43,149 nt of DNA, from contig CABHOV010000004.1 in the NCBI GenBank assembly GCA_902168185.1, positions 1 through 43,149 on the forward strand, given 5' to 3'. Made by a program: the position numbers and the translations under genes. This document shows, one piece after another, positions 125-16,186 of the stretch. Source of the DNA: an uncultured Bacteroides sp. GTDB taxonomy: Bacteria; Bacteroidota; Bacteroidia; Cytophagales; Cyclobacteriaceae. Within the stretch, counting starts at the first letter, position 1, and each line of letters begins with the position of its first letter. The notes under the pieces were generated by a model. That model was not told where the DNA came from. It did no database searches and saw nothing but the letters and a program-made list of their open reading frames with translations.

Positions 125-148
125 CTTTGAGACAATCAATTGTCGGAA

Positions 149-184: not shown

Positions 185-229
185 TTTTCTCTTATACCAA
201 TTTGTTTCGTTTTGTTCAATAGAAGTGTA

Positions 230-244: not shown

Positions 245-365
245 GTTTTACTATACTATATTTAGGGCAGTGAATGTTATATAGTTATCTGGGTATTAAA
301 TTAATGAATCATAACTTTTGATTCTTTTAGTGTAAACATGATAATGCTTCAACGTGCCGGAGACC

Positions 366-407
366 GTAATTAAAAAAGGAGACTTTAAAACCTCCTTTTT
401 TAATTAC
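366..407. terminator. Bidirectional terminator, 16-bp perfect stem
   Basis: The 16-base arms 366-381 and 392-407 are perfectly complementary, containing AAAAAAGGAG and CTCCTTTTTT, around a 10-base loop. It lies 4 bp beyond the stop of the minus-strand lipoprotein gene and would terminate that transcript. The A/T flanks allow it to work in either direction. Confidence 0.8.
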
Positions 408-410
408 AAA

Positions 411-947
411 TCAATTAGCAACCTCAAAAAATCTCTTATAAAAAAGATCTCCCCATTGAATATAAAATGGGTAAGTCACGATATCCCATTTAACGACACC
501 GTTATATGTGATTTTAGTTACATATATAGATTCACTATTGTCGGTATACTTTTTATCAACAAAAGTCTCAACGGTATCGATGTTATTAAAATCATTTTTA
601 TCCCATTGGATCAGCGTTTTTGTCGTTTGCGATTGACGTCCTTCACCCTCATCAGCATACACTTTTATCCCATATTCTTCTTTGCTATTTTTGAAAAATT
701 CAAATTTTCTTGGAGCACTTAAATTCGGAAAATACACCTCGGTCTTCTCTCCATTTTTTAACCAAAACAGTCGTATACTATCTTTTATGTAATGACCTTC
801 CGTTGTCGGATCAAGCAAATTTTTTCCCTCGGCATTTTTTACCGAAAAATAATAGTCAACATTAACATCAGTATTACCGGGATCATCCTTACAAGATGAT
901 AAAAAGGTGATTGCTACAATTGATAATATTACTAAGAATTTATTCAT
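411..947 (-). CDS. Small lipoprotein of unknown function, downstream of a C10 peptidase
   Basis: The 178-residue protein starts with a lipoprotein signal: a hydrophobic stretch from about residue 4 to 16, then the lipobox LSSC at about 16-19 followed by K-D-D. It is therefore probably lipidated and exported. The rest is hydrophilic with alternating aromatic and charged residues, which suggests a beta-rich fold, and I recognise no family. It lies 11 bp downstream of the C10 peptidase gene on the same strand and shares its terminator, so the two are very likely co-transcribed. Other C10 peptidases (streptopain/SpeB with Spi, Bacteroides bfp/bfi) sit next to small proteinaceous inhibitors. By analogy, and only as inference, this could be the cognate inhibitor. 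Confidence 0.8.
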   Translation of the reverse strand: MNKFLVILSIVAITFLSSCKDDPGNTDVNVDYYFSVKNAEGKNLLDPTTEGHYIKDSIRLFWLKNGEKTEVYFPNLSAPRKFEFFKNSKEEYGIKVYADEGEGRQSQTTKTLIQWDKNDFNNIDTVETFVDKKYTDNSESIYVTKITYNGVVKWDIVTYPFYIQWGDLFYKRFFEVAN

Positions 948-958
948 AACGTTTTAGT

Positions 959-2191: not shown

Positions 2192-2195
2192 AACA

Positions 2196-2224
2196 TTTTA
2201 GAAATTAAAGTATAATTTCTAAAA
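2196..2224 (-). promoter_or_regulatory. Hairpin just upstream of the C10 peptidase start codon
   Basis: TTTTAGAAAT (2196-2205) is perfectly complementary to ATTTCTAAAA (2215-2224). In the minus-strand mRNA this makes a 10-bp AT-rich stem with a 9-base loop ending four bases before the ATG at 2189-2191. A stem this close to the start could limit ribosome access in a temperature-dependent way. That function is inferred only from position and base pairing. Confidence 0.4.
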
Positions 2225-2439
2225 GTATAAAAATATACATATGATAGATTATATACTATATATTAATATTTTGTTAAGTGCGTAAATGATTATATGCGTT
2301 TAATCTTCTATTCGTTGTATTCAATCTATCACGTATAGTATATAAGTTTTGTCGCTGAAAAGAAATGCTACGTCTCATACTTAGGATGAATTAAAAATAA
2401 TTTTTTAATTTAGGTTAGCACGTTTCGGAAACTATATGA

Positions 2440-2907
2440 TGAACTCTGCCATACCACGGAATTGCTGTGCAGTCCATATTGAACCTTCACCAGTTTAGAA
2501 ACTGTGATCATCTCAGAAAATAATCCTAAACGATCCAAGGCAAAAACGTCCAATTCCCTTAGCACCAGTCTTTATCCTCCGTCAGTCTCATAGTTTAGGA
2601 GTTTATCACCCGTTTCTATTGGCATCCACCTTTGTTGGATAATAGCTTTAGTCATGCCGATTCCATTGTCAACAATATATAGTGACGGAGTACTAGAATG
2701 TTCATTGTGATTTAGGAAAATGATAAGACAATCCCGAGCATCATTATAAGAATTTTTGACAAGCTCTATTATAGCACCTTGAGCTGTAGCGAAGTTTTCC
2801 TGACCAATTAATTTCGCAGTTCGAGCCGTTACTGAAAAAGATACTTTTCCCTTTTTTTCCTCGTTGATGGAGTGGTAACATGTAGATGTTACTTTAATAA
2901 AATTCAC
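2440..2907 (-). pseudogene. Decayed GHKL (HSP90/MORC-like) ATPase fragment
   Basis: The first frame (stop at 2572) encodes an N-terminal GHKL fold. It has KVSFSVTARTAKLIGQENF, the N box GAIIELVKNSYNDA and the G1 box YIVDNGIGMT, then W-M as in the 'WM.IGTDNK' segment of related ATPases. After the stop, a shifted frame continues with KTGAKGIGRF, and after one extra T a third frame gives ALDRLG followed by SEMITVSK. These are the expected downstream motifs in the right order, so at least two frameshifts have destroyed a once longer gene. Homology is lost near 2440. Intact relatives are 500 residues or more and often occur in defence or mobile regions. The true start was probably near KGKVSFSV rather than at 2907. 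Confidence 0.75.
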
Positions 2908-3222
2908 AAAGCTTGATTGTAAGCATTTTGTGGAGAGAAGCTCAAAAGAAGCAACTTATCCTCAGTATAATTTTCCTTCGACATACTGAATAGCACCAAC
3001 AATAGATTTTGCCAATGTATTAAAACTTTACTTTGTACGACAGACTTTTAAGCTTACCAGTATCGAGCCTTATTATATGACTGACTATCATAGTCTGGAT
3101 ATATGATAGGTTGAAGCAAACATTATATATTCGTGTAAGTTTAAGAGTTCATTGAATTACTTCACAATCCAGCCCAACCGCTGGGATACATTTGGCATTC
3201 AACAAGCACAATATACACGTGC

Positions 3223-3237
3223 CCTATTCGGTGCCCT
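3223..3237 (+). repeat. 15-bp direct repeat, right copy
   Basis: This is identical to CCTATTCGGTGCCCT at 230-244 and lies 36 bp upstream of the tRNA-3'-end-like fragment. The pair delimits about 3 kb. Confidence 0.6.
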
Positions 3238-3261
3238 AAAATTGAAGTAGGATATAAGCAA

Positions 3262-3288
3262 GTCGGGTTAGTATCATCTCACCCGACC
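3262..3288 (+). repeat. Remnant resembling the tRNA-Pro 3' end (possible att site)
   Basis: Bases 3273-3287 (ATCATCTCACCCGAC) match the 3' end of the tRNA-Pro at 110-125, except that one C of the C run is missing. The flanking GTCGGGTTAG resembles the tRNA's D-arm/acceptor bases, but not enough to fold. This is what is left when an element integrates into a tRNA 3' end. A terminator follows, as after the intact tRNA. Confidence 0.5.
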
Positions 3289-3306
3289 TGTAATATTTCA
3301 TTTTCA

Positions 3307-3340
3307 AAAAAGCTCACAGTCTTAAAATTGTGAGCTTTTT
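3307..3340. terminator. Rho-independent terminator (probably for the astacin operon)
   Basis: AAAAAGCTCACA pairs with TGTGAGCTTTTT around a 10-base loop. It lies about 105 bp past the stop of the minus-strand astacin gene and is A/T-flanked on both sides, so it could serve either strand. Confidence 0.7.
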
Positions 3341-3444
3341 ATCCAAATCGGAGCTATAGAGATAGTTCATTCACTTAAAGTCCAACGTAAAATTGGTGTA
3401 TACATTTTGATGGAAAAGATCTTTCATTTTATTTAATACACGAC

Positions 3445-4380
3445 CTATTTACATGCTCCCTTTTCCGTACAGAATTTTGGATCACTGACGCACTCTCCAC
3501 ATGCCAAACAAACTGTTCCGAGACATTTGCAACGCCCTTTCCAACATGTGAATCCATCAGTACATTGCTGTTTGCATGGCTTGGCTGGGTACATATTATT
3601 AATAGCGGCAACGTCTTTATCACTTAATGCTTCCCTATTTCCGATTTCAGTATCATGAGATGCAGGAGGAATAAGAATGTCAATTGTATTTTCACCATTT
3701 TTCGAGAAAGCTGTTTTTCCATAATGCATTATCGACCCGTAATCATACTGACCGAAATCTGAAGCAATGTCAGTACGTTTATCAAATTGTTCAACTTTTC
3801 CATCTTCGATATTACTTTGGTTGATTTTAATATAGCGATCTCGATCTGAACGACTTTGCTCATGGAGCAATCCTGCAGCGTGTAATATTTCGTGAGCAAC
3901 TCCCCCTTTACCACATGCGCCTATTGTAACATCCTGTTTGCCACCGATCATTCCAAAATAGGATGAACAGCCTTCGCCTTCTATAAAATTCAAATAGTTA
4001 TTTTGTGCTTTTCTCGCCACCAGTTCCAAATTTGTAACTTTATTGATATGACCAATGGCCAATTGGATGTCGTTAAAGGACGGATGGTTTTGAGGTAATA
4101 CATAGTATATTTTATTATTCGGCCACAGCTTACCTATATCATCTACAACAAGTGCTCTTGTCGGTTTGACGTTACCTAAGATTATATCACCCTCCAGAAT
4201 TAGTTTCCCATCTATTATTTGGAGCGTCACCGATTGGCTGGGTTTGTTTGGATCAAATTGAACTTCATATGTTTCGACCGCATACGCTCCTTTTTTAAAA
4301 TGCTCCTGCGCGAGAGAGATATTGGCAGTGATTACAAGGATAATTGATACCGTAGCTGTAATTATTTTTGAAAGTTTCAT
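3445..4380 (-). CDS. Secreted astacin-family (M12A) zinc metallopeptidase
   Basis: I start at ATG 4378-4380. This gives a clean signal peptide MKLSKIITATVSIILV...SLAQ and avoids the 29-bp overlap with the upstream gene created by the longer reading. The protein has 311 residues. The zinc site HEILHAAGLLHEQSRSDRD matches the astacin consensus HExxHxxGxxHExxRxDRD (ligands His163, His167, His173; catalytic Glu164). The Met-turn SIMHY (about 216-220) supplies the astacin Tyr. A short Cys-rich tail (about ten cysteines after residue 268, EGF/knottin-like spacing) may bind carbohydrate or protein. It is the last gene of a four-gene minus-strand operon. A secreted endopeptidase acting outside the cell or at the envelope is well supported; its substrate is unknown. 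Confidence 0.92.
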   Translation of the reverse strand: MKLSKIITATVSIILVITANISLAQEHFKKGAYAVETYEVQFDPNKPSQSVTLQIIDGKLILEGDIILGNVKPTRALVVDDIGKLWPNNKIYYVLPQNHPSFNDIQLAIGHINKVTNLELVARKAQNNYLNFIEGEGCSSYFGMIGGKQDVTIGACGKGGVAHEILHAAGLLHEQSRSDRDRYIKINQSNIEDGKVEQFDKRTDIASDFGQYDYGSIMHYGKTAFSKNGENTIDILIPPASHDTEIGNREALSDKDVAAINNMYPAKPCKQQCTDGFTCWKGRCKCLGTVCLACGECVSDPKFCTEKGACK

Positions 4381-4405
4381 GTGATTGGGGGTTGTAAGTC
4401 TTAAT

Positions 4406-5752
4406 TCAAAACCGTGATTTTTTCTGGATGGCATACTTAAGTCCGAACTGCGGAACTACTCGGGTATCATCGTTACCTTGAAGAAATTTTTGCCCGCCTA
4501 CCGCTAACTCAAGCCATAAGCCTTCGTTGATCTTCATTTCTCCACCTATAGTATAGCGTATATACTCGCTTTTGTCTGTAGTCTCCCCGTTGATGGTAGC
4601 CTGACTGTATAGAAATTCCGCGGATAATCTTTTATCAGCTTTACCAAGTAACAACCTTCCGCCAGTAGAAAACTCCCACTTCAGCGGCATGGATTTATCT
4701 TTGTAGTTAATATAGCTTGCCTGGTATATAACCTGTGAACTTTTGGCAAGTGTTGAGTTGCTATTAGCAAGGCCAGGAATGCGACCGGCAATACCACCGA
4801 AGATACGCCAGTTGCGAAGTGATAAATCTTTAATGGTATTTTCTGCAGAGTTATACTTGGATCCTGCCTTTAATTGAATCACCAGGCGATTCCAATTCTC
4901 TTCGATGAAAATTTTCTTTTGCCGCTTTAATTCTTCGCTGAAATTTTCAGCAAACTCCTCTTCTTCTTCCCGTTCTGTAAATGTGAGTTTGGCGTTTTGG
5001 ACAATCAACATTGACAATGCATTGCTTTGAGCGCTATCAAGATTGATGTTGAAAGTCCCGAGCTTTTGCAATACGGTATCTTTCATAACGAAAGCATACA
5101 GTTGATTGTCCGTTGAATCATAGCGAAGGAGTCTGCTTCTATATCCACCGCCAAAGTATTGCAGTATTGCTACTTTTGTTTGTGATGATAATCTGGAGGT
5201 AGGAGTCAGTGAATTTAGAAATTGATTTACAACTTGCAGGTGTTTGTTTCGCTGGCCTGCAAATGACATCTGGTTAGCTATACTATCTTTGTTTGCGAGG
5301 TAGTCTGCAAAGAAATTTTGTAAAGCTATATTTGCTACCGGATCTGTTCTGTCAATCGGTGTCCAATTTATACCCCACGCTGCGAGTAAATTAGAGGAGT
5401 CTCCCTGTGCCGTTCCTATACTGATCTGTAAATTCTTTAGAGATTTATTCTTCTCCCAAAAGGAGCGTACTTTTAAAGCCTTTGCAAGGATACGATACGG
5501 TGCAATTTCCATTGCCAATCCTGGTTTCAGATTTCCATCCTGGTCAACATAATTTTGAATGCCAACCGCCAACTCCTTTACATTGCCCGGACGTACAACA
5601 TCATTGGAATTTATATCCAGTATAGAAAATGCAGTTATATCGGGTACGGAGAAATCGACATAGTAATCGTCAATAGTGATAGAATCGGGATTCTGTGCGT
5701 ATAGAGAGGCTCCTGCAAGTATACCTATACAGATGAGAATAATCTTTTTCAT
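4406..5752 (-). CDS. Exported protein, probably outer-membrane, unknown family
   Basis: The 448-residue protein has a signal peptide MKKIILICIGILAGASLYAQ. The middle part is helical and charged (an EEEEEF stretch near residue 265). The last 100 or so residues alternate hydrophobic and polar residues (e.g. RLSAEFLYSQATINGE, IRYTIGGEMKINEGLWLELAVGG) and end VVPQFGLKYAIQKKSRF, as in an outer-membrane beta-hairpin/barrel segment. I recognise no named family. It follows the small protein 5765-6115 by 12 bp and precedes the astacin gene by 25 bp, so it belongs to the same operon. It could be the surface anchor or transporter component for the exported peptidase (inference). Confidence 0.82.
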   Translation of the reverse strand: MKKIILICIGILAGASLYAQNPDSITIDDYYVDFSVPDITAFSILDINSNDVVRPGNVKELAVGIQNYVDQDGNLKPGLAMEIAPYRILAKALKVRSFWEKNKSLKNLQISIGTAQGDSSNLLAAWGINWTPIDRTDPVANIALQNFFADYLANKDSIANQMSFAGQRNKHLQVVNQFLNSLTPTSRLSSQTKVAILQYFGGGYRSRLLRYDSTDNQLYAFVMKDTVLQKLGTFNINLDSAQSNALSMLIVQNAKLTFTEREEEEEFAENFSEELKRQKKIFIEENWNRLVIQLKAGSKYNSAENTIKDLSLRNWRIFGGIAGRIPGLANSNSTLAKSSQVIYQASYINYKDKSMPLKWEFSTGGRLLLGKADKRLSAEFLYSQATINGETTDKSEYIRYTIGGEMKINEGLWLELAVGGQKFLQGNDDTRVVPQFGLKYAIQKKSRF

Positions 5753-5764
5753 ATATATAGGAGT

Positions 5765-6115
5765 TTAATTTGTGGCTTCTAAAAGTGCATCGTCAGAAAT
5801 TTTTACTGCCGCTTCTGCCGGGACATCGATCTGTCGCGTCCATACATTCAGAACTTTATTGTCCTGCGTCCAGGTTATCGTAACAGTAGCGGTCAACGTG
5901 CTTGTCGAGATATTGCCAAGTCTTATATCCCAGGAGTTAATGTCGTCATCAAGATTGACAGGGAGCCCCAATATATGGTTAGAGTTACCACCGGCCGAAC
6001 TTTTGGATTTAAAGGTGAGATCACCCACATATATATAGCTCCATACTGGTGCTTCTTCGACTTGTATATCAATTGATACAGGTTTGTCGGTTTTACTGAA
6101 TCGAATGAGTTCCAT
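5765..6115 (-). CDS. Small beta-rich protein of unknown function
   Basis: The 116-residue protein has no signal peptide or membrane segment and begins MELIRFSKTDKPVSIDIQVEE. Repeated alternating patterns (SIDIQVEEAPVWSYIYVG, STLTATVTITWTQDN) suggest a single beta-sandwich domain. I know no family for it. It lies in the operon 25 bp after the membrane protein and 12 bp before the outer-membrane-like protein. Its base composition matches its neighbours. Confidence 0.75.
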   Translation of the reverse strand: MELIRFSKTDKPVSIDIQVEEAPVWSYIYVGDLTFKSKSSAGGNSNHILGLPVNLDDDINSWDIRLGNISTSTLTATVTITWTQDNKVLNVWTRQIDVPAEAAVKISDDALLEATN

Positions 6116-6140
6116 AACGTTTTGATGAGTTTAGTGTATT

Positions 6141-6770
6141 TTATTTCTTTTCGTTTATAACTTTTGTTGCATATGGTACTATACCTATACCCAGCGATGC
6201 CAGTATAGGCCACAATTCTTCGAACTTAGGCACGGGTAGCCCTTTGATTGCGAAGTACATATAGTAAGAGGTGATGCAGATCGCAATGATCACCGCAGAG
6301 AGACCGGAGAAGAAAGCGATCAACCGACTGCTGCTTCTTTTTAATACGGGTTCCTCGGGTGTTTTTCCACCGGCTATAGCAACGGCTTGAAGCTGTTCTA
6401 CCTGGTCATCCGACATGTCTACAGAAAGAGCATCCGCTATTTTGTACTTGTCCTCCTTCAGCCAGCGCAGGAAATACCAAAGTAAGAGTATAAATAGAAT
6501 CACCGGCAACAGGATCATTATCCATTGGATGAAGTCGGGTTTTGCTATGCATTCTATGCAAGGCGGTACAGGAGGACGAGCAATGATTACACGCTTTATT
6601 GAATCGGATTTTTTCACCAAGGTCTCCAGGGATTTGTTTCCAGTGGTATTCAACTTAACAAGCTTACTTAAGCGATTCACGATCACTGTATCGGTTCCGG
6701 AAGATGACTGCGCGTGTGATGTATATACGCCTCCCAATAATAAAATCATGACGCAGATAATTGTTTTCAT
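6141..6770 (-). CDS. Membrane protein, first gene of the astacin operon
   Basis: The 209-residue protein has a signal peptide MKTIICVMILLLGGVYTSHAQ. An extracytoplasmic segment follows with a PPVPPCIECIAKP cysteine pair (about residues 68-80). There are then a transmembrane helix (about 83-104, WIMILLPVILFILLLWYFL), a cytoplasmic loop with a DDQVEQLQAVAIAGGKTPEEP segment, and two further helices (about 151-172 and 183-203). I recognise no family. The arrangement, a short periplasmic head with a three-helix membrane part, could suit a signalling or anchoring role. It heads the operon to the astacin gene and is divergent from the small-protein gene at 7001. The shared motif at 6899-6938 lies in its upstream region. 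Confidence 0.78.
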   Translation of the reverse strand: MKTIICVMILLLGGVYTSHAQSSSGTDTVIVNRLSKLVKLNTTGNKSLETLVKKSDSIKRVIIARPPVPPCIECIAKPDFIQWIMILLPVILFILLLWYFLRWLKEDKYKIADALSVDMSDDQVEQLQAVAIAGGKTPEEPVLKRSSSRLIAFFSGLSAVIIAICITSYYMYFAIKGLPVPKFEELWPILASLGIGIVPYATKVINEKK

Positions 6771-6898
6771 ATTAGTGTTTATTTAGACAACAGTATATTT
6801 TGAGGTTGCGCATCAGGGTTTATGATCTCTGATAACAGTATCAAAGTTCACTCGACAGAAGTCGTTTATCAACGTGAAAAGAGACGTATTTATACCGT

Positions 6899-6938
6899 GA
6901 AAAATCCCGTTTCGAACGCAGAGAGAATGTTGGAATAT
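6899..6938 (+). promoter_or_regulatory. Bipartite candidate operator, copy 1
   Basis: GAAAAATCCCGTT (6899-6911), then 20 bases, then GGAATAT (6932-6938). The identical blocks with identical spacing occur in the other divergent intergenic region at 8928-8967. The bases between are unrelated, so this looks like selected protein-binding sites rather than recent duplication. The obvious candidate binder is the NarL-type regulator encoded at 9051, which is inference. Confidence 0.6.
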
Positions 6939-7000
6939 AGCATTCAAATCAGGAGAGTATATCTCCTCTTAAAAGAAACTAACTCTAAAAACTAAGATGT

Positions 7001-7354
7001 ATGCAAAGAAGATTTAAACTCGGTGACAAAATTGCTTCGATCGAGCAGACACCATCGTTGAGGTTCTCTAATGATGGAACCCAGATGATTTTTACCTTTC
7101 CGGTAATTTCCACTGAACCACCCGACTCAGAATCAGAAGAGCCGCAAAACAGTAAGCGTCACACCCATCGTGATCTTTTCGAGCTTGCTGGTGGAACGGT
7201 CTTCAGTAACAGCTTGAAGGTTTCCCTCTCCAGTGTGAACAGAGACGAATCAGTATTAACGATGAGCATGAAAGTAAATTCAAAAGTGCCAGGTACAGGA
7301 GCAGCCTTTGCCAAGATTGTAAATGGCAGCAACGGTAACAGCCATCATTCATAG
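7001..7354 (+). CDS. Small 'KVPGTG' protein, partner of the first C11 peptidase
   Basis: The 117-residue protein has no signal peptide and no known domain. It is a paralogue of the protein at 9719-10096. Both have an N-terminal strand pattern (FKLGDKIASIEQTPSLRFS here, IRLTGETIGERVIKPQIKFS there). Both also have a C-terminal half ending in a hydrophobic strand plus the shared motif S/T-KVPGTG (MKVNSKVPGTGAAF here). The middle is acidic and low-complexity (EPPDSESEEPQNS). The gene converges on the C11 peptidase gene 7452-8846, as the second copy does on the second peptidase. The repeated pairing suggests a substrate, inhibitor or adaptor for the peptidase. A shared terminator lies between them. 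Confidence 0.78.
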   Translation: MQRRFKLGDKIASIEQTPSLRFSNDGTQMIFTFPVISTEPPDSESEEPQNSKRHTHRDLFELAGGTVFSNSLKVSLSSVNRDESVLTMSMKVNSKVPGTGAAFAKIVNGSNGNSHHS

Positions 7355-7379
7355 ATCCACTATTCTCTCTATAAATGAA

Positions 7380-7412
7380 AAAGCTATCTCATTCGAGGTA
7401 GCTTTCTTTTTG
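7380..7412. terminator. Bidirectional terminator between convergent genes
   Basis: AAAGCTATCTC (7380-7390) pairs with GAGGTAGCTTT (7395-7405), with one G-U pair and a 4-base loop. A T tract follows on the plus strand and an A tract precedes it, so it can end both convergent transcripts. Confidence 0.8.
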
Positions 7413-7451
7413 TTACTGACAACGGTGTTAAGAATATATATCAGAATATGC

Positions 7452-8846
7452 TTATGAAAGCGCAACGACTTCTTCTTCACCTGTCTCACTTTCTTCTTCT
7501 ACAGGTTCCGTAAGTATATAGTGCCGAATAAACATGTCCCACCCAAAGCGTTTTGTGAATTCAGTGGGCGAGAGTGATGATTCAGTCATGAAGTTATCGA
7601 GGAATGATGTTTTGTAATCTTCCTGCAATCGCGGAAAGTAAATGGAAAATCCAGAAGGTTTTATAGCAGCGCTGGTGCCGTCATCATCAAAGTCTTTCCC
7701 AATAAAAGATTCAATGACAACGTTATCCAGCAATGTTTTGAATGTATTAAAGAGACTATCCGTGAATACGTCAGGCATTTCTTCGTAAAGATGTGTGATC
7801 AGATTTCGGAAATCAAGGAGACAGAACATTGGTATACCTGGAGATATATAGTCACATTTGTTTGCCGCTATGAGTATTTTTTCACGATGGGTTGGTAAAG
7901 CTTTTGTTAATATTTCTGCGAGCTTATCGATCATTCGCGCTAATGCAGCGTACCACGAAAGATCATTTGCAAATAAAGCTACTTCATCACGCGAAGCAGG
8001 TATAGCTGTATTCGTTTCAGACGCAAATAAGTTTACAATGTTTTTTGAAAGTGCTTCAGGCAATATATCCGGATCTTTTCCTATATCTTCAAGAATGACC
8101 TTGTAATTGAATGTGTCCTTAAAGAACATCACCGTCTCAAAAGTAACAAGGTAATCTACTGTGTCACTCAGCTCATATCCGGTATCAAAGAAATGCAAAA
8201 AGCAATTGGCCATAACAAGCACATCAATCTTCTGGCCATCAAATGCCCATTGAATAGCCTGCTTCAATTCGGTTATCGTCAATATTGGTAGTACGTCATC
8301 TTCCTCAGTAGGCACCGCCATTCGATGTGTTTGCCTTTCTAAGTTCAATTGTTTTTGCTGGCGGAAATGAAATGTTTTTAGATTGAGATTTTCTGTGGGA
8401 GTTCTCGCTGCTCTATTTATACCTGGAAAGATGCCAAAGGGCTGACCATGATCCCAGGTGAATAATATATACTTCTCTGCTATAAAAGATGAAAGAACTT
8501 TTTCTTTGAAGAAGCCCGTGATGTCTTGTTCTTTATCAATTCTAAAGTCGCGGCTTTCATGGATATACTGAAATATACATTCACCCTTCGGGTTACGTTC
8601 AAGGCTGCAGAATAATGTAGTCCATCCGGGTTCCTTCATAGAAACATCGCCTGGTCCAAGGACTCTCGTAATTGGAAGTATATCCGGGGCTATCTCTGCT
8701 TTTATATTGATACAGAGCACTACGGCTATATCTTCCGTTTTTTCGACAGAGGTCAGCTGGTCTAGTAGTTGGTTAAGCTCGCGGATGTTGTCGGCTGCAC
8801 CTTTAATTAGAAAGATAGCAGTCCATTTGTGTTTTTTCTGTGACAT
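7452..8846 (-). CDS. Clostripain-like (C11, clan CD) cysteine peptidase, cytoplasmic, copy A
   Basis: The 464-residue protein has no signal peptide. The N-terminus KHKWTAIFLIKGAADNIRELNQLL matches the 'KWTVLVYM.ADN' start of C11 domains. The catalytic His lies in YILFTWDHGQPFGIF (His133), and the Cys in IDVLVMANCFLHFFDTGYEL (Cys215, the family's DACLM...E.AYE position). The His-Cys loop is longer than usual and carries a charged insert (about 142-185), a likely activation or autocleavage loop. C11 enzymes share the caspase fold and normally cut after Arg or Lys. The C-terminus is acidic (EEESETGEEEVVA). It is paralogous to 10097-11323, converges on the small KVPGTG gene and is divergent from the response-regulator gene. 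The absence of an export signal separates it from typical secreted clostripains. Confidence 0.85.
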   Translation of the reverse strand: MSQKKHKWTAIFLIKGAADNIRELNQLLDQLTSVEKTEDIAVVLCINIKAEIAPDILPITRVLGPGDVSMKEPGWTTLFCSLERNPKGECIFQYIHESRDFRIDKEQDITGFFKEKVLSSFIAEKYILFTWDHGQPFGIFPGINRAARTPTENLNLKTFHFRQQKQLNLERQTHRMAVPTEEDDVLPILTITELKQAIQWAFDGQKIDVLVMANCFLHFFDTGYELSDTVDYLVTFETVMFFKDTFNYKVILEDIGKDPDILPEALSKNIVNLFASETNTAIPASRDEVALFANDLSWYAALARMIDKLAEILTKALPTHREKILIAANKCDYISPGIPMFCLLDFRNLITHLYEEMPDVFTDSLFNTFKTLLDNVVIESFIGKDFDDDGTSAAIKPSGFSIYFPRLQEDYKTSFLDNFMTESSLSPTEFTKRFGWDMFIRHYILTEPVEEESETGEEEVVALS

Positions 8847-8924
8847 AACTGTAGGGTTTTAGAGTATAAGTAAAGTTGCCGACAATCATTATACATCACA
8901 ATGTGGAAACGTCCGGGGTAACTA

Positions 8925-8967
8925 CGGGAAAAATCCCGTTATCTGTAAAATCTTAAAACCGGAATAT
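8925..8967 (+). promoter_or_regulatory. Bipartite candidate operator, copy 2
   Basis: GAAAAATCCCGTT (8928-8940) and GGAATAT (8961-8967) are separated by 20 bases, exactly as in copy 1. Here the first block is part of an inverted repeat, ACGGG-AAAAAT-CCCGT. It lies between the divergent C11 gene (starts 8846) and response-regulator gene (starts 9051). Further downstream are two ATATTCC repeats and GTTACTGGTAAC (9013-9024), which may be additional sites. Confidence 0.6.
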
Positions 8968-9050
8968 TGTACAGTTGACGCGGATGGTGTATATTCCATA
9001 CATATTCCGATAGTTACTGGTAACGTTTAGCACTACAACCTTTATGAGAT

Positions 9051-9695
9051 ATGATGAAAGTGATGATCGGAATCGCTGATGACCAACGGTTATTTTTGAA
9101 ATCGCTGGTAACCCTTGTTAATACCTTCAGCCAGTTTACTGTTGTACTGGATGCGCAGAATGGTAGTGATCTTTTAAATAAGCTGGAACGGGCCGAACAG
9201 GAACCCAGTATAATTTTACTGGATGTAAACATGCCGGGTATGGATGGTATACATGCTGCGCAGGAAATTTCACAACGATATCCGGCTATCAAGCTGGTGG
9301 CATTATCGATGAAGGATGATGATACTACCATTATTAGCATGTTCAAAGCCGGATGCTGTGCATATCTGGTAAAAGATATACATCCTGATGAACTCGAGAA
9401 GGCATTGGCTGAAGTATACAGCAAAGGATTTTACAATGCCGATGCGATGAATATAAATTTCCGGAGATTGCTGGCGCATGGTAACAAGAAAAATGAGATC
9501 AGGATCACCGAGCGTGAGATGACATTTTTAAAATACGCATGTACGGACATGACCTATAAACAGATTGCCTCTGAGATGAACCTTGCCGAACGCACTATCG
9601 ATGGATATCGTGAAGCACTGTTCGAAAAACTGAATGTGCAAAGCAGAGTGGGAATGGCGATGGAGGCGATTCGGAGAAAGTTGGTGGAGATATGA
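9051..9695 (+). CDS. NarL/FixJ-type response regulator
   Basis: The protein has 214 residues. The receiver domain (about 4-122) has the acidic pair DD (10-11), the phosphoacceptor Asp58 in IILLDVNMPGMDG, a conserved Ser in ALSMKDDD and Lys in YLVKD. The C-terminal LuxR-type HTH (about 148-212) reads ITEREMTFLKYACTDMTYKQIA...ERTIDGYREALFEKLNV. It binds DNA when phosphorylated. The partner is most likely the histidine kinase encoded at 11312-14383, whose HisKA_3 type pairs with NarL regulators. The gene lies between the two peptidase/small-protein pairs, 23 bp before the second small gene, with which it probably forms an operon. Two ATGs (9051, 9054) are possible; the difference is one residue. 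Confidence 0.93.
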   Translation: MMKVMIGIADDQRLFLKSLVTLVNTFSQFTVVLDAQNGSDLLNKLERAEQEPSIILLDVNMPGMDGIHAAQEISQRYPAIKLVALSMKDDDTTIISMFKAGCCAYLVKDIHPDELEKALAEVYSKGFYNADAMNINFRRLLAHGNKKNEIRITEREMTFLKYACTDMTYKQIASEMNLAERTIDGYREALFEKLNVQSRVGMAMEAIRRKLVEI

Positions 9696-9718
9696 TACTT
9701 ATTTAACAACATAATGAT

Positions 9719-10096
9719 ATGGCAAAACCAGCAGTTCGAATACGTCTTACCGGGGAAACCATTGGTGAGAGAGTGATTAAACCACAAATCAAATTCAGTA
9801 GGAGTGATGACGGAGGGAAGGGAGTTTTGAGAATCACATTCGGTCTTGATGCTATAGGAGATATAGTGGAAGACAGTGAAGCTTCTGTTAACGATCCCGA
9901 CATCAAAGACAATTGCCGCGATGCTTTGCTTACTAAAGATTTCTTTGTTCGTAGAAAATTATCTATTGCATTCTCGCCCGATGGTTCAGATGGTTCCATC
10001 ATGACACTTACAGCAAAGTTACCGACAAAGGTGCCTGGTACAGGTACTGAAATTAAAACAAAGAAGAAAAAGGTTATGAAGAAGAGTAAAAGATAA
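9719..10096 (+). CDS. Small 'KVPGTG' protein, partner of the second C11 peptidase
   Basis: The 125-residue protein has no signal peptide. It shares with 7001-7354 the strand pattern RIRLTGETIGERVIKPQIKF at the start and LTAKLPTKVPGTGTEI near the end. It ends in a strongly basic tail (KTKKKKVMKKSKR). No known family is recognised. The gene follows the response regulator by 23 bp, and its stop codon abuts the stop of the convergent C11 gene (10097). The repeated tail-to-tail pairing with a C11 gene suggests direct cooperation with it. A Lys precedes the conserved VPGTG in both proteins, and C11 enzymes favour basic P1 residues, so this could be a cleavage site (inference). Confidence 0.78.
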   Translation: MAKPAVRIRLTGETIGERVIKPQIKFSRSDDGGKGVLRITFGLDAIGDIVEDSEASVNDPDIKDNCRDALLTKDFFVRRKLSIAFSPDGSDGSIMTLTAKLPTKVPGTGTEIKTKKKKVMKKSKR

Positions 10097-11323
10097 TTAT
10101 ATAGTTTTCTCTACAAGAGACAGCCATTTTGTTCTTTTCATAAATTCTGTTTGGAAGAATTCATCGAAGTTCGGTAAAGGCCTTTCCGGATCTTGAAGAG
10201 CATCCGGAAAATAAATCAATAGCCCCGTTGTAGGTACAGTTAATTTAGTGGCAACATGGCTTTCTATTACTAACAGTTCCTTAACCGAAATGAGGAGCGA
10301 TGCTATTTGTATATCGGAGAAGAGTATCTCGTTTCTTAAGTTACAGATGAATGAATAGAAATCACAAAGATTAGTTGCCGGGTTTACCATGCTCTTTTCT
10401 CTTATCGCCTGAATGGCTTTTAAAGAATCTTCTGAATGTAGTCTTGGAAGAACAGAATAAACTAATCTGTCAATTTGCTTTCCAAGTGTTGTAAACTGAC
10501 TTAGGTCTGTAGCAAAAACAGAGGTTTTACTTTTTATATTATCACCTAAACTAGTATTGATATAGGCCTTTGATGCAAAAGAGCGTACTGCAAGCTTCGC
10601 CAATTTGCGTGGCTTTATATTTGGATTATTAATCATTGCCTGGAATATGAAAGAGTAATTATACCCTCTGAAATCCATATCGGTTTGAGGCGCTACCAGG
10701 TACTTTGCATTTTTTCTAAGCGCGTAGCCAGTATCAACCATTTGCATCAGGCAATTCATCATAATTACCAAATCGACTTTTTTTGTTCCGAACGCGAGAC
10801 TGATGGCGTTCCTCAACTCCTCCATCGTTAGTATCTTTACCTCCGGTTGGACAATAACTTCTATATCTTCTTTTTGGTTAGGGACACTACTATCTTCAAA
10901 AATTCCATATCCTTTTCCATGATCCCAGGTAAAAAGTAAGTAATGCTTCGCTTTATACCTTCTGAGAACATGATCTCTGAAGTATTCTTCAATATCATTT
11001 GGATCAGTAATATCAAATGTTGAACGTTCCAATATGATTCTCAAGTCGCTTTGAAACTTATCTGGATTGTTACCTGGTATAAGTTTAAAGAAGATCGTAG
11101 TGAGTGTTCCTTTTTCATGAGGATTAGGAGTAAATGATTCATCACCCTTTAGTAAGGGATCAAGATGTTCTCTTATGAAATTAAGGCATACAATTACTGA
11201 AATCTGGCTATTTAATTCCTGTACCCGGATCTCATTCATCATTTTGATAGTCTCACTAATGGATCCGGCAACAGCTTTAATAACAAAGAAAACAGTCCAC
11301 TTTCGTTTCTTTTGCGACTTCAT
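10097..11323 (-). CDS. Clostripain-like (C11, clan CD) cysteine peptidase, cytoplasmic, copy B
   Basis: The 408-residue paralogue of 7452-8846 has the same plan. The N-terminus KRKWTVFFVIKAVAGS is followed by the catalytic His in YLLFTWDHGKGYGIF (His135) and the Cys in VDLVIMMNCLMQMVDTGYAL (Cys191). The His-Cys loop is shorter (about 56 residues) than in copy A (82), and the acidic tail is absent. It has no signal peptide, so it should act in the cytoplasm. Its start overlaps the divergent kinase gene's longest reading by 12 bp, and its stop abuts the convergent small gene. The Asp that normally stands two residues before the Cys is replaced by Met here (Ala in copy A). The His-Cys dyad is kept, so activity is plausible but unproven. 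Confidence 0.85.
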   Translation of the reverse strand: MKSQKKRKWTVFFVIKAVAGSISETIKMMNEIRVQELNSQISVIVCLNFIREHLDPLLKGDESFTPNPHEKGTLTTIFFKLIPGNNPDKFQSDLRIILERSTFDITDPNDIEEYFRDHVLRRYKAKHYLLFTWDHGKGYGIFEDSSVPNQKEDIEVIVQPEVKILTMEELRNAISLAFGTKKVDLVIMMNCLMQMVDTGYALRKNAKYLVAPQTDMDFRGYNYSFIFQAMINNPNIKPRKLAKLAVRSFASKAYINTSLGDNIKSKTSVFATDLSQFTTLGKQIDRLVYSVLPRLHSEDSLKAIQAIREKSMVNPATNLCDFYSFICNLRNEILFSDIQIASLLISVKELLVIESHVATKLTVPTTGLLIYFPDALQDPERPLPNFDEFFQTEFMKRTKWLSLVEKTI

Positions 11324-14300
11324 TTTTGTAGTTTGATATTTGTTGTGAAAAGCTTTACCTACTATATACTTCTAACGGTTATACTCTGTCCAACGATGAC
11401 TTCCTTGGGACAGGAAACTAAATTTGTCACGCCTATTAAATATACCCAAAATGAAGGGCTTTCCAGTTACTATATAACAAAAATAATCAAGGACTCTTAT
11501 GGCTTTCTCTGGATCGGCACACAGGAAGGTCTCAATTTGTTTGACGGAAATCGATTTCAGATATTCACAAAACGCTCGCCTGCCAAACAGAAACTGAACG
11601 GAAGTTTTATCTCTGATCTGCTGGAAGATAAAAAGCGAAATTGTATCTGGGTACTTTTGTCCTATGGGGAAGTTTGTGCCATCGACCTGCAAACTCGCAT
11701 TGTAACCCGCAGGGTTTTACTCGATACCAGCAATCCTGATAACGTAAAGTGGAAGCGATGTCTCGCGTTGAAAGGTGATACGCTCTGGATAGCAGGACTT
11801 GACTTTGCATACGCTTACCAAATCTCCACGAACAAAATATTACCCATTGATATTCGGGCGAAATGCGCTGTCGGTAAGGCAGAACTCAATATCTCGATGA
11901 TCCATTTTGATCAGCATCAACGCATGATCATCTGTGCTGACGGTTATGGTATAATTATACTCGATAAAAATCTTCGTCACCTCCATACGTTCCGGGCGGA
12001 TGAATTGAATGCTCCGGGCACGTATACCAAACTTCGATTTTGGGACGTTGTTATGCTGGAACATATACTATATATTGCCAGCAGCACAGGATTAAAGATA
12101 ATAGATACAGCTCCAGCACAAATGGCATTAGTGCCGGCTGACGATATTCCGCTGCTGCGTAAAGGTGAACTGTTGAGTATTGCAGCATCTTCTGATTCTT
12201 CTTTGATGTTCTCCACGTCAGCAGGTGTTTATGAATATAGTCTCCCGGCAGAAAGTATTGTTTCGTTACGGGATAACAATCCAGCAAATAATTTATTCAC
12301 CACAACGTATGATATATACTACGATCAGCAATTACACCAGGCTTGGATCGGTACGTTGGCGGGTATTGCCTCTTTTCCTACACGCGTAGTACATTTCAAA
12401 ACATTTTCTGAGTATGGTGCCAATGTAAAACTAAAGCACTTGTTTTCTGTGTTGCCAGTGTCGGAGAATATAATTTATGCAGGAGATGAAAATGGTATAT
12501 ACTATGTCGATACAAAGACAGGTGAGATTACGCAGATCGATGCGTCCGGGAGTAACCTGATGTTGTTTCAGGATCAGGCGCGTCATGTATTCGTTTCGAA
12601 TAAAACCGGCTTTCATCTTATTGAAGGTAAAAGTCTGAAGCCTGCGCATTCCGTTTTTTCTTCTATGAAATTGCTGAACTCCGATCATCTTAGCTGTGGT
12701 ATTCAGTATAATGATTCGTTGGTGTTGTTCGGTAGTATTATACAGAAAGGACTTACCATCTGGAATACACGTACGGGTAAATTACAGGTATACCATCAGC
12801 AATCGAGCGACCATACTATAGCAGGACTTACCATCATTAATTACCTCTATAAGACCCGCACGGGTGATGTGATGATCCTTACGGAAAAATCAATTATTGC
12901 TTTTAATCCGCTCACCGGTAAATATATCACGCACACCATTCGCGACAATCTGACGCAGGAGGTGATTAGTAATTTTATGGATATGTGTGAAACGGATGAT
13001 CGCTTTTATATTGCTACGTATGGTGACGGACTGATTGAAACGGATAAGCAACTTCATGTAAAGAAAATTATTCGCTCGGAAGATGGGTTGAATAACACCT
13101 GTATATATCGTGTATTTCCCTTTCAGAATAAAGCTATACTGGCAACGACTAATGATGGGCTTTCGCTAATACACCTGAACCCGTTAAAGATCAAGAATTA
13201 TTTTCAAACGGATGGACTCAATACAAATGCTTTTGAACAGCTCTGCGGCTATCAGGACGATCATCGTATTATTACCGGAGGTGTTGATGGGTTTACAATT
13301 ATTGACCCTGCACAACTTCCGAGTAACGCGCGACCTCCCGAGCTATATCTTTGGAATCTGAAGGTAAATACAAAAACCGGTGTGATTGACACTTGTCACA
13401 TTGGGATGAAAGCAATGCGTATACCGACTGATGTGCTGCAGACTACTGTATCCTTTTCGGCTTTAAACTATAGCAATCCAAAAGCTGTTCGGTATGCCTA
13501 TAAGATCAATGAACTCAACAATGACTGGATAGATTTAGGGAAACAGAATTTTGTAGACTTGATTGGATTTTCCCCGGGAGACTATACGTTGCAGGTGCGT
13601 GCTGCAAATGAAGATGGTATATGGAGTGACGTGCCGCTGTCGCTTAGTCTCATCTATATACCGAAGTGGTATCAGACGAATATTTTTAAAATTGCTATTG
13701 CTTTGTCAGGGGCGATGTTTATTTATGGTTTGCTGCGTTATCGCATTGATCAGCTTAGAAAACAACAGGAGATACGCAAGCAAATAGGCAGCGACCTGCA
13801 CGATGATATAGGCAGCGTACTGAATACGCTGAAGATCTTTACACACTTGGCCAAGCGCGAACCGGAAAACAAATCTCACCTCGATCAAATTGAAGAATCG
13901 ATAACACAAGCCACTACCGGTCTTCGTGATATGATCTGGGTATTGGAGGAACCGGAAGACACGATCTTTGAATTGACAGAGCGTATCAAAAAGTTTGCAC
14001 TGCCGGTATGTATCGCGAACAATATTAAATTCAATACGAATATTCAGTCCGACAACAAGACAAGGAATTTACTCAAAACTGAAAAAAGAAATCTCCTTCT
14101 CATTGCAAAGGAATCAATCAACAATAGTATCAAGTATTCACAATGCAAAAATATTTCTGTTTCTATAGTTCAATTCAACCAGGAACTTGGTATCACCATA
14201 AGCGATGATGGTATTGGATTCAAGATGGAAGATGTGATTTATGGAAAAGGCTTAAAGAATATTCAATACCGGGCCGGGCAGATAAATTTTTCCTGTCAAA

Positions 14301-14383
14301 TGGACGCCACGTTAAATGGCGGTACAACCATTCATCTGCAAAAAGGAAAGAAAACATCCAGCCTGTTGGACACTTCCATTTGA
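11312..14383 (+). CDS. Propeller/Y_Y_Y-type sensor histidine kinase
   Basis: The protein has 1023 residues from the first ATG. An in-frame GTG at 11345 (KSFTYYILLTVILC...) would give a cleaner signal peptide and avoid overlapping the divergent peptidase gene, so it may be the true start. The periplasmic part carries Reg_prop propeller repeats (e.g. DSYGFLWIGTQEGLNLFDG). A Y_Y_Y domain (about 690-780) precedes one membrane helix (about 790-807). The cytoplasmic HisKA_3 has the phosphorylated His830 in GSDLHDDIGSVL, and the HATPase_c has an N box KESINNSIKYS and G box SDDGIGF...GKGLKNI. It lacks the fused receiver and AraC domains of hybrid sensors, so it needs a separate regulator, here 9051-9695. 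This family often senses glycans or periplasmic ligands; the ligand is unknown. Confidence 0.9.
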   Translation: MRLHFCSLIFVVKSFTYYILLTVILCPTMTSLGQETKFVTPIKYTQNEGLSSYYITKIIKDSYGFLWIGTQEGLNLFDGNRFQIFTKRSPAKQKLNGSFISDLLEDKKRNCIWVLLSYGEVCAIDLQTRIVTRRVLLDTSNPDNVKWKRCLALKGDTLWIAGLDFAYAYQISTNKILPIDIRAKCAVGKAELNISMIHFDQHQRMIICADGYGIIILDKNLRHLHTFRADELNAPGTYTKLRFWDVVMLEHILYIASSTGLKIIDTAPAQMALVPADDIPLLRKGELLSIAASSDSSLMFSTSAGVYEYSLPAESIVSLRDNNPANNLFTTTYDIYYDQQLHQAWIGTLAGIASFPTRVVHFKTFSEYGANVKLKHLFSVLPVSENIIYAGDENGIYYVDTKTGEITQIDASGSNLMLFQDQARHVFVSNKTGFHLIEGKSLKPAHSVFSSMKLLNSDHLSCGIQYNDSLVLFGSIIQKGLTIWNTRTGKLQVYHQQSSDHTIAGLTIINYLYKTRTGDVMILTEKSIIAFNPLTGKYITHTIRDNLTQEVISNFMDMCETDDRFYIATYGDGLIETDKQLHVKKIIRSEDGLNNTCIYRVFPFQNKAILATTNDGLSLIHLNPLKIKNYFQTDGLNTNAFEQLCGYQDDHRIITGGVDGFTIIDPAQLPSNARPPELYLWNLKVNTKTGVIDTCHIGMKAMRIPTDVLQTTVSFSALNYSNPKAVRYAYKINELNNDWIDLGKQNFVDLIGFSPGDYTLQVRAANEDGIWSDVPLSLSLIYIPKWYQTNIFKIAIALSGAMFIYGLLRYRIDQLRKQQEIRKQIGSDLHDDIGSVLNTLKIFTHLAKREPENKSHLDQIEESITQATTGLRDMIWVLEEPEDTIFELTERIKKFALPVCIANNIKFNTNIQSDNKTRNLLKTEKRNLLLIAKESINNSIKYSQCKNISVSIVQFNQELGITISDDGIGFKMEDVIYGKGLKNIQYRAGQINFSCQMDATLNGGTTIHLQKGKKTSSLLDTSI

Positions 14384-14613
14384 AAAGGTAGTTCATCTAA
14401 TTCATAATCACTCGCTTGAATTGGAGTCGTCAGTCATTAGTACATATCATTAATTTAATATTGAAGGAACTTTGTGTTAACCCGGGCAGTGGCAACTCAT
14501 ATTTATATATAGCGAATGTTAAGTCGATATCTCCTCGGGTTATACCGTTCAACATCATTCATTTGTATCCCAGCAACACAAACTATATATTACATAAATT
14601 AAATGTTATTACT

Positions 14614-15033
14614 ATGAAAAGAACAGCAAGTGCACATTGGAGTGGTGACCTCAAAGCAGGTCAGGGAGACATAACAACCCAAAGCACAACCCTCAACAAA
14701 ACACAATATTCATTCAACACCCGCTTTGCAGATGGTGTTGGTACTAATCCGGAAGAATTGATAGGAGCAGCCCATGCCGGTTGTTTTACAATGGCACTAA
14801 GTGCTGCTTTGATGCAGGCAGGCTTCACAGCCGGAGACCTGGACACAAAAGCCACGGTTGAATTTGATACAAACGCTTTAAAGATCACCGGTATAACACT
14901 TGACCTGGTGGCTACACCGATCGCGAATGTATCAGCGGAGCAATTTAAAACTATTGCTACTGCAGCAAAAGAGAACTGTCCTATATCCAAGGCACTCGCG
15001 AGTGTACCCATTACGCTTAATGTAAGCTATTAA
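14614..15033 (+). CDS. OsmC family peroxiredoxin-like protein
   Basis: Starting at ATG 14614 gives a 139-residue protein, the usual OsmC length; the frame stays open upstream to 14416, but that part is not OsmC-like. Two conserved cysteines are visible, in AAHAGCFTMALSAAL and KENCPISKAL, which act as peroxidatic and resolving residues in OsmC/Ohr. The start MKRTASAHWSGDLKAGQG and the segment GTNPEELIGAAHAG are typical of OsmC (YhfA/OsmC-like) proteins, which reduce organic and hydrogen peroxides with thiols. It is cytoplasmic and homodimeric in the family. It stands alone with a strong terminator 23 bp downstream. Confidence 0.9.
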   Translation: MKRTASAHWSGDLKAGQGDITTQSTTLNKTQYSFNTRFADGVGTNPEELIGAAHAGCFTMALSAALMQAGFTAGDLDTKATVEFDTNALKITGITLDLVATPIANVSAEQFKTIATAAKENCPISKALASVPITLNVSY

Positions 15034-15055
15034 TGGCGTAAAAAAAACGAAACGG

Positions 15056-15082
15056 GGGTGGCTCAAAGCCACCCTTTTTTTA
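15056..15082 (+). terminator. Rho-independent terminator after the OsmC gene
   Basis: GGGTGGCT (15056-15063) pairs with AGCCACCC (15067-15074) around a three-base loop, followed by eight T. Confidence 0.9.
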
Positions 15083-15256
15083 TATCAGCATTTTCCCTCT
15101 TTTAGACTGTACCGATATATATCATATAAAGCACGGGAGAACGCTGATCAATTTAAAGATACCTTTCCTATACCGTCAGCTGCGGGTTGTCAATCTCATT
15201 TTGCACGGTCGTATGTCATCATTATTTTCCGTTGGTTAATATATGACGTCACGATT

Positions 15257-16186
15257 ATGACTAAACCCCGATTTATTTTTCTTGCGGTTGTCTTCTTCTG
15301 CGCAACACAATCTTTCGCACAGACAAGTACAAAGGCTGATGATAAAACGATTGCTTATTTAACTCAATTCAGGTCTGACTATAGCAAACGTATACTTGAA
15401 GGAAAGCCTGAACAATTGTCTGCTTACTATGACGATAACATCCGACTGATGGTAGAGTTTCAGAAAACCATGTTCGGCAAAAGTAATGTCACTGCATATC
15501 ACAAAGCAGTGCTCATACGATTTGATACCAAATCCTATAGTCGGGAGAACTTGGAGATTCTGGATCTTGGTTCAATGGTGGTTGAATACGGTATATTTAA
15601 TTGGAAAGCTATATTTCGTAAATCCGGCAAAGAGCATGAGTTGAGTGGTAAATATCAACATGTTTGGAAAAAGCTTCCGAATGGCACGTTGCTCCTCATC
15701 ACCGAAGGCTGGAATTATAACGAACGCCAGGATATAGCGGATCAGCTTCGATTTTCAGATATACCTATAGTAGATGTCGCGACACAGGCGCACGTGCCTA
15801 TTAATACGAATATAAGTTTTGAACTGGCAGCATTAAACCGGTTACAGGAAGCTACCATATCGCAGCACGATGCCAGCATCTGGTCACAATTCTACGCCGA
15901 GGATGCAATTCTCTATACACAGTATCATCCGATACAAAAGGGAAGAAAGGCAATTGATGAATACTTTATGCAACACGTTAAAGAAACTCCGGTATTTGAA
16001 AAGCTGGATATTCGGAACGATCGCATTGATGAATCCGGAATTTATGTAATAGAATATGCCAGTCATATAGCGATCGTCAGAAATGGAACTTTCTCGGGTG
16101 TATTTACAGGAAAGGATCTTGCCATCTGGCGGAGAGAGCCTAATGGATCGTTGAAAATTTTCAGGCACATGGCGATGTATGATTAA
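15257..16186 (+). CDS. Secreted protein with two NTF2/SnoaL-like domains
   Basis: The 309-residue protein has a signal peptide MTKPRFIFLAVVFFCATQSFAQ. It appears to contain two copies of a DUF4440/SnoaL-like alpha+beta-cone fold. Copy 1 is about 35-155 (YYDDNIRLMVEFQKTMFGKSNVTAYHKA...YQHVWKKLPNGTLLLITEGWNY). Copy 2 is about 190-308 (FYAEDAILYTQYHPIQKGRKAIDEYFMQ...DLAIWRREPNGSLKIFRHMAM). The W-K/R-x-x-PNGS-x-K/L-I ending recurs in both, supporting internal duplication. Such domains bind small ligands or act as minor enzymes; no catalytic assignment is possible. The next gene starts 54 bp downstream and is also a secreted protein, so the two may be co-expressed. Confidence 0.85.
   Translation: MTKPRFIFLAVVFFCATQSFAQTSTKADDKTIAYLTQFRSDYSKRILEGKPEQLSAYYDDNIRLMVEFQKTMFGKSNVTAYHKAVLIRFDTKSYSRENLEILDLGSMVVEYGIFNWKAIFRKSGKEHELSGKYQHVWKKLPNGTLLLITEGWNYNERQDIADQLRFSDIPIVDVATQAHVPINTNISFELAALNRLQEATISQHDASIWSQFYAEDAILYTQYHPIQKGRKAIDEYFMQHVKETPVFEKLDIRNDRIDESGIYVIEYASHIAIVRNGTFSGVFTGKDLAIWRREPNGSLKIFRHMAMYD

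Follow-up and report, generated by a model that had tools for sequence, protein, structure and literature searches.

A 43,149-nt contig of an uncultured Bacteroides sp. (GenBank assembly GCA_902168185.1, CABHOV010000004.1, positions 1 to 43,149; GTDB family Cyclobacteriaceae), hereafter the window, carries two convergent gene pairs, each composed of a Peptidase_C11 gene (C11) and a gene for a small protein with a KVPGT motif near its C terminus (KV), together with a response regulator (RR) and a sensor histidine kinase (HK). Comparison with related genomes supports well the pairing of KV with C11, the specific intergenic motif, and the replacement of one pair as a single cassette. An initial annotation of the DNA had proposed duplicated C11 modules with a dedicated two-component system and a shared putative operator, and this proposal is supported: all ten genes placed in 3445-14383 read through, the translations bear out two tail-to-tail pairs with KVPGTG in both small proteins, and Pfam agrees with the domain calls (Peptidase_C11, Response_reg/GerE, Reg_prop/Y_Y_Y/HisKA_3/HATPase_c, and Astacin). 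The central features are:

6896..6911, + strand: Operator 1 (putative), CGTGAAAAATCCCGTT, a near-palindrome between the gene of a 209-aa protein and KV1
7001..7354, + strand: KV1, 117-aa orphan with KVPGT, Gly at residue 98
7380..7405, + strand: terminator-like hairpin between KV1 and C11_1, 11 pairs and a T-rich tail
7452..8846, - strand: C11_1, Peptidase_C11 (Pfam E 7.4e-15) with WDHG and MANC
8925..8940, + strand: Operator 2 (putative), palindromic CGGGAAAAATCCCGTT, between C11_1 and RR
9051..9695, + strand: RR, NarL/LuxR-type response regulator, Response_reg and GerE (Pfam 1.7e-22 and 1.1e-13)
9719..10096, + strand: KV2, 125-aa orphan with KVPGT, Gly at residue 107, and a Lys-rich tail; in the swapped cassette
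10097..11323, - strand: C11_2, Peptidase_C11 (Pfam E 5.2e-21) with WDHG and MMNC, antisense between KV2 and HK; in the swapped cassette
11345..14383, + strand: HK, propeller/Y_Y_Y sensor kinase (HisKA_3), likely GTG start; longest open reading frame (ORF) from TTG 11312

Seven genomes were found to carry C11 genes of this kind, namely those of the window, G074, G583, G582 and G156 within the genus, and G160 and G584 from two other genera (contig L014 is identical with G583:C153 and was counted once). With C11_2 as the query, matches were obtained in 4/196 family genomes and 5/7 genus genomes, the window's own included, and a ten-row C11 profile recovered 12 genes from 7/390 family genomes at E<=1e-6. 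Beyond the family, C11_2 searched across the phylum found weak C11 matches in 8/395 genomes in addition to the window (best 3.5e-12); across the class, 345 genomes searched with the C11 profile yielded the window and two weaker matches (G1016, 3.4e-18, with internal stops; G1067, 4.3e-11); and a class search with KV gave the window and two matches at E 0.004 in 295 genomes. The order envelope operon, KV1, C11_1, RR, KV2, C11_2, HK is common to the window, G074, G583 and G582. The first pair (slot 1, 7001-8846) was seen in the genus only, and the second (slot 2) belongs with the regulator gene, because KV2 is co-directional with RR and lies 23 bp behind it. The main locus of G156 consists of KV1, C11_1, RR and HK, with 78 bp between RR and HK and no cassette between them; this genome has a second, stand-alone KV/C11 pair on another contig, behind a same-strand subtilase gene, at a spacing of 9 bp (longest ORF) or 105 bp (start aligned with the other KVs). 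G160 and G584 have RR, KV, C11 and HK, the minimal unit, which in the window is 9051-14383.

The initial annotation had taken the C11 and small genes to belong together, and the two are not scattered apart, as a KV-like gene adjoins each of the 12 C11s found with C11 queries (eight relatives were recovered by BLAST with the window KVs, and those of G160 and G584 by position and then by alignment). A twelve-row KV profile run against 344 family genomes returned 12 matches at E<=3.7e-24, all of them C11-adjacent KVs; because these are the profile's own rows, only the absence of other KVs is informative, and no further strong match was present in these genomes (three others at E 0.006-0.01 were taken as chance). 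The two proteins also diverge together. KVs change at about the rate of their partner peptidases, the KV and C11 identity matrices are correlated with a Mantel r of 0.973 (0/20000 permutations as high), and of 32 within-genome swaps the true pairing scores highest (the runner-up reaches 0.788), with the proviso that the 12 pairs are not all independent because the slot-1 pairs of the window and G074 are near copies.

The KVs are 104-128 aa long (n=12), and K-[VLI]-P-[GY]-[TS] is kept in 12/12, 2-20 residues ahead of the C terminus. By residue, K and P occur in 12/12, Gly in 10/12 and Thr/Ser in 12/12. A variable tail of 14-20 residues follows the motif in 9/12 KVs, with at least four Lys/Arg in 4/12, and only 2-3 residues follow it in 3/12. 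KV1 has a dN/dS of 0.15 against G074. Neither KV1 nor KV2 gave a Pfam match at E<=1 or any PADLOC or PHROG match.

C11_1 and C11_2 score 55.8 and 76 bits against a curated PF03415 cut-off of 25.8, and the catalytic His (WDHG) and Cys (NC) are kept in 12/12 C11s, 52-90 residues apart. Six PDB sequences align with the C11 profile (E 4e-9 to 6e-3), including 6mzo, 3uws and 4yec (PmC11). By inspection, no signal peptide is visible in either window C11, and on that basis both are presumed to be cytoplasmic. In PMC4850288, Asp177 of PmC11 is described as conserved throughout C11 and as the predicted S1 determinant. The corresponding position, two residues ahead of the catalytic Cys and aligned without gaps, is Met in six, Ala in three and Ser in three of the 12 C11s, next to an invariant Asn. 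These peptidases are probably active yet not Arg/Lys-specific, and with Met, Ala or Ser at S1 a small P1 residue such as Gly would be expected to fit better than Lys or Arg.

Replacement of slot 2 was apparent when the window was compared with G074. DNA identity is 95.4% over 4398-9693 and 94.1% over 11274-15327, and between these lies only a 172-bp match at 66.9%; the swap boundaries fall at the RR stop codon on the left and at about codon 16 of C11_2 on the right. The seven flanking genes share 94-99% amino acid identity with G074 (dS 0.05-0.25, dN/dS 0.03-0.22), and KV2 and C11_2 share 32-39%, with a dS of 3.6 for KV2 and a saturated dS for C11_2. In a maximum-likelihood tree of the 12 C11s, approximately unbiased (AU) tests rejected a clade of the window and G074 slot-2 peptidases (p 0.0025) as well as a clade of all four slot-2 C11s (p 1e-39), and the G582 slot-2 pair is nearer slot 1 (43% to C11_1, 31% to C11_2), whereas the HK tree unites the window and G074 with support of 100/99. 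By this disagreement between the slot-2 pairs and the kinase tree, the four genus genomes with a slot 2 record at least two changes of its content, in each of which KV and C11 went together. Ancient polymorphism held in common could also account for the slot-2 differences; whole-cassette replacement suggests conflict or non-self discrimination.

The initial annotation had also linked the two divergent regions by a common intergenic motif, and the palindrome CGGGAAAAATCCCG is indeed present at 6896-6911 and 8925-8940 with 0 mismatches each. The motif stands ahead of KV1 in 5/5 genus loci (0-1 mismatch) and ahead of RR in 7/7 loci, two of them in other genera (0-2 mismatches), with two copies in G584. 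In the window, a scan gave the two 0-mismatch matches and one with 3 mismatches, and 2/100 shuffles gave at least three matches. Across seven whole genus genomes, all 7 exact matches lie inside the locus; at <=1 mismatch there are 15, of which 10 are the two expected sites in the five module-bearing genomes and 5 lie elsewhere. Because the pattern was written after the sites of all loci had been seen, the finding of the locus sites is by construction; independent of pattern design are two observations, namely that exact matches outside the locus are scarce and that the site persists in the well-diverged DNA of G583, G582, G156, G160 and G584. The regulator therefore seems to act mainly on its own locus. 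Sites with 3 mismatches ahead of the G156 subtilase-KV-C11 locus (L015:4982) and of a papain operon in G160 (L018:17004) are only suggestive, and two other such matches in L018 fall inside genes. A sigma-70 scan of the region gave 35 sites versus 32.4 in shuffles.

The kinase and the C11s occur in the same genomes, as HK was found at E<=1e-100 in 5/7 genus genomes, the same five as C11, and the other two have no such kinase. Co-occurrence of kinase, regulator and astacin had been named as a check in the initial annotation; the kinase follows the C11s, and the astacin does not (0/7 relative stretches). GTG 11345 is a likelier start for the kinase than TTG 11312, because in L017 and L016 the longest ORF opens at the aligned residue and because the resulting N terminus is signal-like. 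The architecture of the kinase would suit an external signal.

In all six loci in which a pair lies between RR and HK, the C11 gene sits between KV and HK and is read from the other strand. The KV-C11 gaps in these RR-KV-C11-HK loci are 0-19 bp, and the C11-HK gaps are 17-30 bp in the five with a placed kinase start (the aligned GTG in the window and G583, and the longest ORF in the others). Because this leaves little non-coding room for separate terminators or divergent promoters, RR-KV2-HK may most simply be read as one unit with the C11 gene antisense inside it.

The genes divergent from KV1 form the envelope operon and its variable neighbors:

3445..4434, - strand: astacin (M12A), Pfam E 3.4e-46, signal-like N terminus, HEILHAAGLLHE and MHY motifs; accessory
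4406..5752, - strand: 448-aa protein, signal-like N terminus; its C-terminal part is, by eye, rich in beta structure; unmatched in Pfam, NCBIfam and PHROGs
5765..6115, - strand: 116-aa protein, no signal peptide by eye; sub-cutoff Pfam match only
6141..6770, - strand: 209-aa protein, by eye with hydrophobic segments and a signal-like N terminus

The initial annotation's operon of four genes with a terminal astacin proved unstable, and inclusion of the exported astacin in the system is not supported; nor did the analysis tie one protease to another in the proteolytic cascade envisaged there. The 209-, 116- and 448-aa genes occur in 3/4 other module-bearing genus genomes with the astacin absent; the 448-aa gene is in 4/7 genus genomes, window included (others 80-99% identical), and the 209- and 116-aa genes are conserved in L017, L034 and L035. 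No astacin was found by tblastn in 7 relative stretches (~19 kb each, 6 genomes), so it is considered accessory, and with its absence from contig C8 of the window's own assembly it is ruled out as a core output. C8 (G000; its end is L098) reaches the 448-aa gene without an astacin. It matches the window at the tRNA-Pro end (95.5% over 268 bp) and at the 448-aa gene end (98.6% over 142 bp); from tRNA-Pro (50-125) to the 448-aa gene the two differ in content. In the window (1-4398) this interval encodes a 178-aa protein, a C10 peptidase, a GHKL fragment and the astacin; C8 carries in their place genes for a 252-aa protein (PASTA-like by eye) and a 186-aa protein. The two versions in one assembly reflect either a strain mixture or a real second copy. 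The C10 peptidase (959-2191, - strand) is of streptopain type with an Inhibitor_I69 (Spi) domain, and the GHKL piece (2572-2907, - strand) is a short match to the first part of the HATPase_c_3 profile only (E 6e-7).

Near several of the loci lie proteases of unrelated families: the astacin in the window, a C14 caspase (Pfam 9e-7) encoded in G156 by the operon that diverges from KV1, the subtilase ahead of KV in the second G156 locus (4e-45), and a papain-like gene downstream in G160 (7.4e-12). The G156 operon (L016:6668-9899, - strand) encodes a hydrophobic-segment protein, the C14 caspase (CGHGD, DCCH) and a 509-aa protein with a signal-like start; by eye it resembles the 209-116-448 template, and no tblastn match to those three proteins was obtained. 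A 271-aa protein heads the envelope operon in G583 and G582 (L034:12562-13377, + strand; L035:7209-8024, - strand; 92% identical); it has the motif SHEVLELIGD, gave no Pfam match above cut-off and no PDB relative, and by eye is possibly a metallopeptidase. The astacin, the 271-aa protein and the subtilase were each without a tblastn counterpart in G074, and in G584 the sole neighbor scanned with Pfam gave no match. On the other side of the locus, 17040-25770 is occupied by an ordinary cluster for polysaccharide use (GH43, SusD, SusC/TonB, FecR and ECF sigma genes), and 38233-40143 (+ strand) holds an OLD-family-like ATPase/TOPRIM gene.

NCBIfam and PHROGs name none of KV1, KV2 and the 209-, 116- and 448-aa proteins, and Pfam gave nothing above cut-off for them. 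A named defence system was ruled out, as PADLOC returned no match among the eight proteins of the locus scanned and the Pfam matches include no nuclease. Phage carriage was set aside because no relative was found in IMG/VR, and plasmid carriage because C11_2 matches only distant C11s on 3 plasmids and C11_1 none; the Gemmatirosa plasmid is unannotated.

A self-contained, autoregulated protease switch is the explanation we favor, tentatively and somewhat short of calling it probable, in which RR and HK control C11 and its dedicated KV, with docking of the staphostatin kind. The kinase would sense something outside the inner membrane and phosphorylate the regulator, which would bind the two palindromic operator copies and control its own locus, operator 1 serving KV1 and the divergent envelope-protein operon, and operator 2 serving C11_1 and the RR-KV2-HK unit. 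Each KV would be the dedicated cytoplasmic partner of the C11 opposite, most likely as a slow, substrate-like inhibitor that docks its C-terminal K-[VLI]-P-[GY]-[TS] in the active site in the manner of staphostatins. Staphostatin B, as reported in PMC7863939, inhibits staphopain with IGTS at P2-P2' and Gly98 at P1, and uses a Gly98-Thr99 segment as substrate mimic; KV1 also has Gly98-Thr99. The likeness of KVs to staphostatins is one of size, place and letters, not of homology. As C11_2 is transcribed against RR-KV2-HK, more regulator and partner would mean less peptidase. A partner fitted to a single enzyme could be transferred only together with it, which would explain the joint movement of KV2 and C11_2 as a cassette.

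Several observations weigh against this switch. At the proposed P1, Tyr replaces Gly in 2/12 KVs, and two KV profile searches of the PDB found no staphostatin and no solved relative. According to PMC7863939, staphopains are secreted and papain-related, whereas the C11s here are caspase-fold and lack a visible signal peptide. Four sites matched the reversed-pattern control for the operator, and three of these lie in G074, a genome with only 2 true sites. In slot 1 of the window, 97 bp lie between the genes and include the terminator-like hairpin, and C11_1 does not lie embedded in an operon, so that the antisense argument is limited to slot 2; terminator-like sites in the region are no commoner than in shuffles (8 versus 7.6). 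Furthermore, slot 2 is present in only four genus genomes, which leaves few replacement events, and selection in the flanking genes is purifying, with no direct sign of an arms race.

The same pairs could instead hold a protease and its effector: C11 would cut near KVPGTG and the product would act, as with bacterial gasdermins or the gated nuclease of Canu, which a caspase-like protease sets free. The conserved site ahead of a 14-20-residue variable tail in 9/12 KVs, at least four Lys/Arg in 4/12, and the swapping of protease-effector pairs as modules in defence, as PMC12799240 describes it, all suit this account; however, the 3/12 KVs with only 2-3 residues after the motif have little to release, KV1 and KV2 lack any Pfam, PADLOC or PHROG match, and 104-128 aa is presumably short for a gasdermin. 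No gasdermin match to KV1 or KV2 was seen in Pfam or PADLOC, two libraries whose coverage of bacterial gasdermins is unchecked. We consider an effector role rather unlikely. It is likewise doubtful, by a similar assessment, that the locus is a new recognition or conflict locus, in which an antisense-wired switch under two-component control would hold an interchangeable caspase-fold protease-partner cassette, and proteases of unrelated folds (caspase, subtilase, papain, metallopeptidase-like, astacin) would be recruited per species.

If KV were a folding or specificity adaptor, an obligate C11 subunit like CanB, which co-purifies with the caspase CanA, C11 would be an ordinary regulated cytoplasmic protease. 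Strict pairing and co-divergence would follow, and co-expression of CanA with CanB gave a soluble complex in an experiment that PMC12799240 reports; but convergent gene order gives no co-translation, and a scaffold alone leaves the invariant K-x-P near the C terminus unexplained. An adaptor is unlikely in our view. A nutrient-type sensor regulon, with proteases that help use a polymer, is quite improbable. Propeller/Y_Y_Y kinases of this phylum often sense glycans, so the kinase architecture fits such a regulon, as does the GH43/SusD/SusC cluster at 17040-23665, but the 0-mismatch operator is restricted to the locus, both C11s are without a visible signal peptide, and no transporter or glycosidase is among the Pfam matches of 3445-14383.

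Should the autoregulated switch hold, the combination of a C11 peptidase, a partner dedicated to it and a sensor system of its own would be new to the literature searched, in which no description of this gene set was found by title or abstract start, subscription journals lying outside the scope. Control of the staphostatin type would then have a parallel among caspase-fold proteases, and the locus would be a compact example of a gene lying antisense inside its own controlling unit. The near-identical loci with a replaced cassette are a natural experiment on partner specificity.

Among known systems, staphopain-staphostatin, SpeB-Spi and Bfp-Bfi likewise have a cysteine protease gene beside a gene for a dedicated small partner. 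Bfi-type staphostatin-like proteins of 116-138 aa adjoin C10 proteases of Bacteroides fragilis, and two of these proteases are co-transcribed with them, according to PMC2873492; here, unlike the co-transcribed protease and inhibitor of the Bfp-Bfi type, the KV and C11 genes are convergent. With clostripain and PmC11, the C11s share the PF03415 match and the His-Cys dyad, but S1 Asp177 is replaced in 12/12, and they are best viewed as sequence relatives within C11 that are probably not of the Arg/Lys-specific kind. Canu likewise combines a caspase-fold protease with a partner protein and modular gene swapping; the present locus differs in that no nuclease is among the Pfam matches of the ten window genes, it has its own two-component system, and it has no PADLOC match. 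An opposite-strand gene inside a co-directional set, with scant room for signals, is also a trait of the noncontiguous operon of the menE-menC-MW1733-ytkD type, as described in PMC7154746; the parallel here is drawn from gene order alone. The propeller and Y_Y_Y sensor resembles that of the Bacteroides hybrid two-component systems; however, kinase and regulator are separate genes here and the regulator is of NarL type. The regulators of those hybrid systems are AraC-type. Taken together, the known kind is a protease with a dedicated partner, and the control layer and the modular replacement are what is unfamiliar from those pairs.

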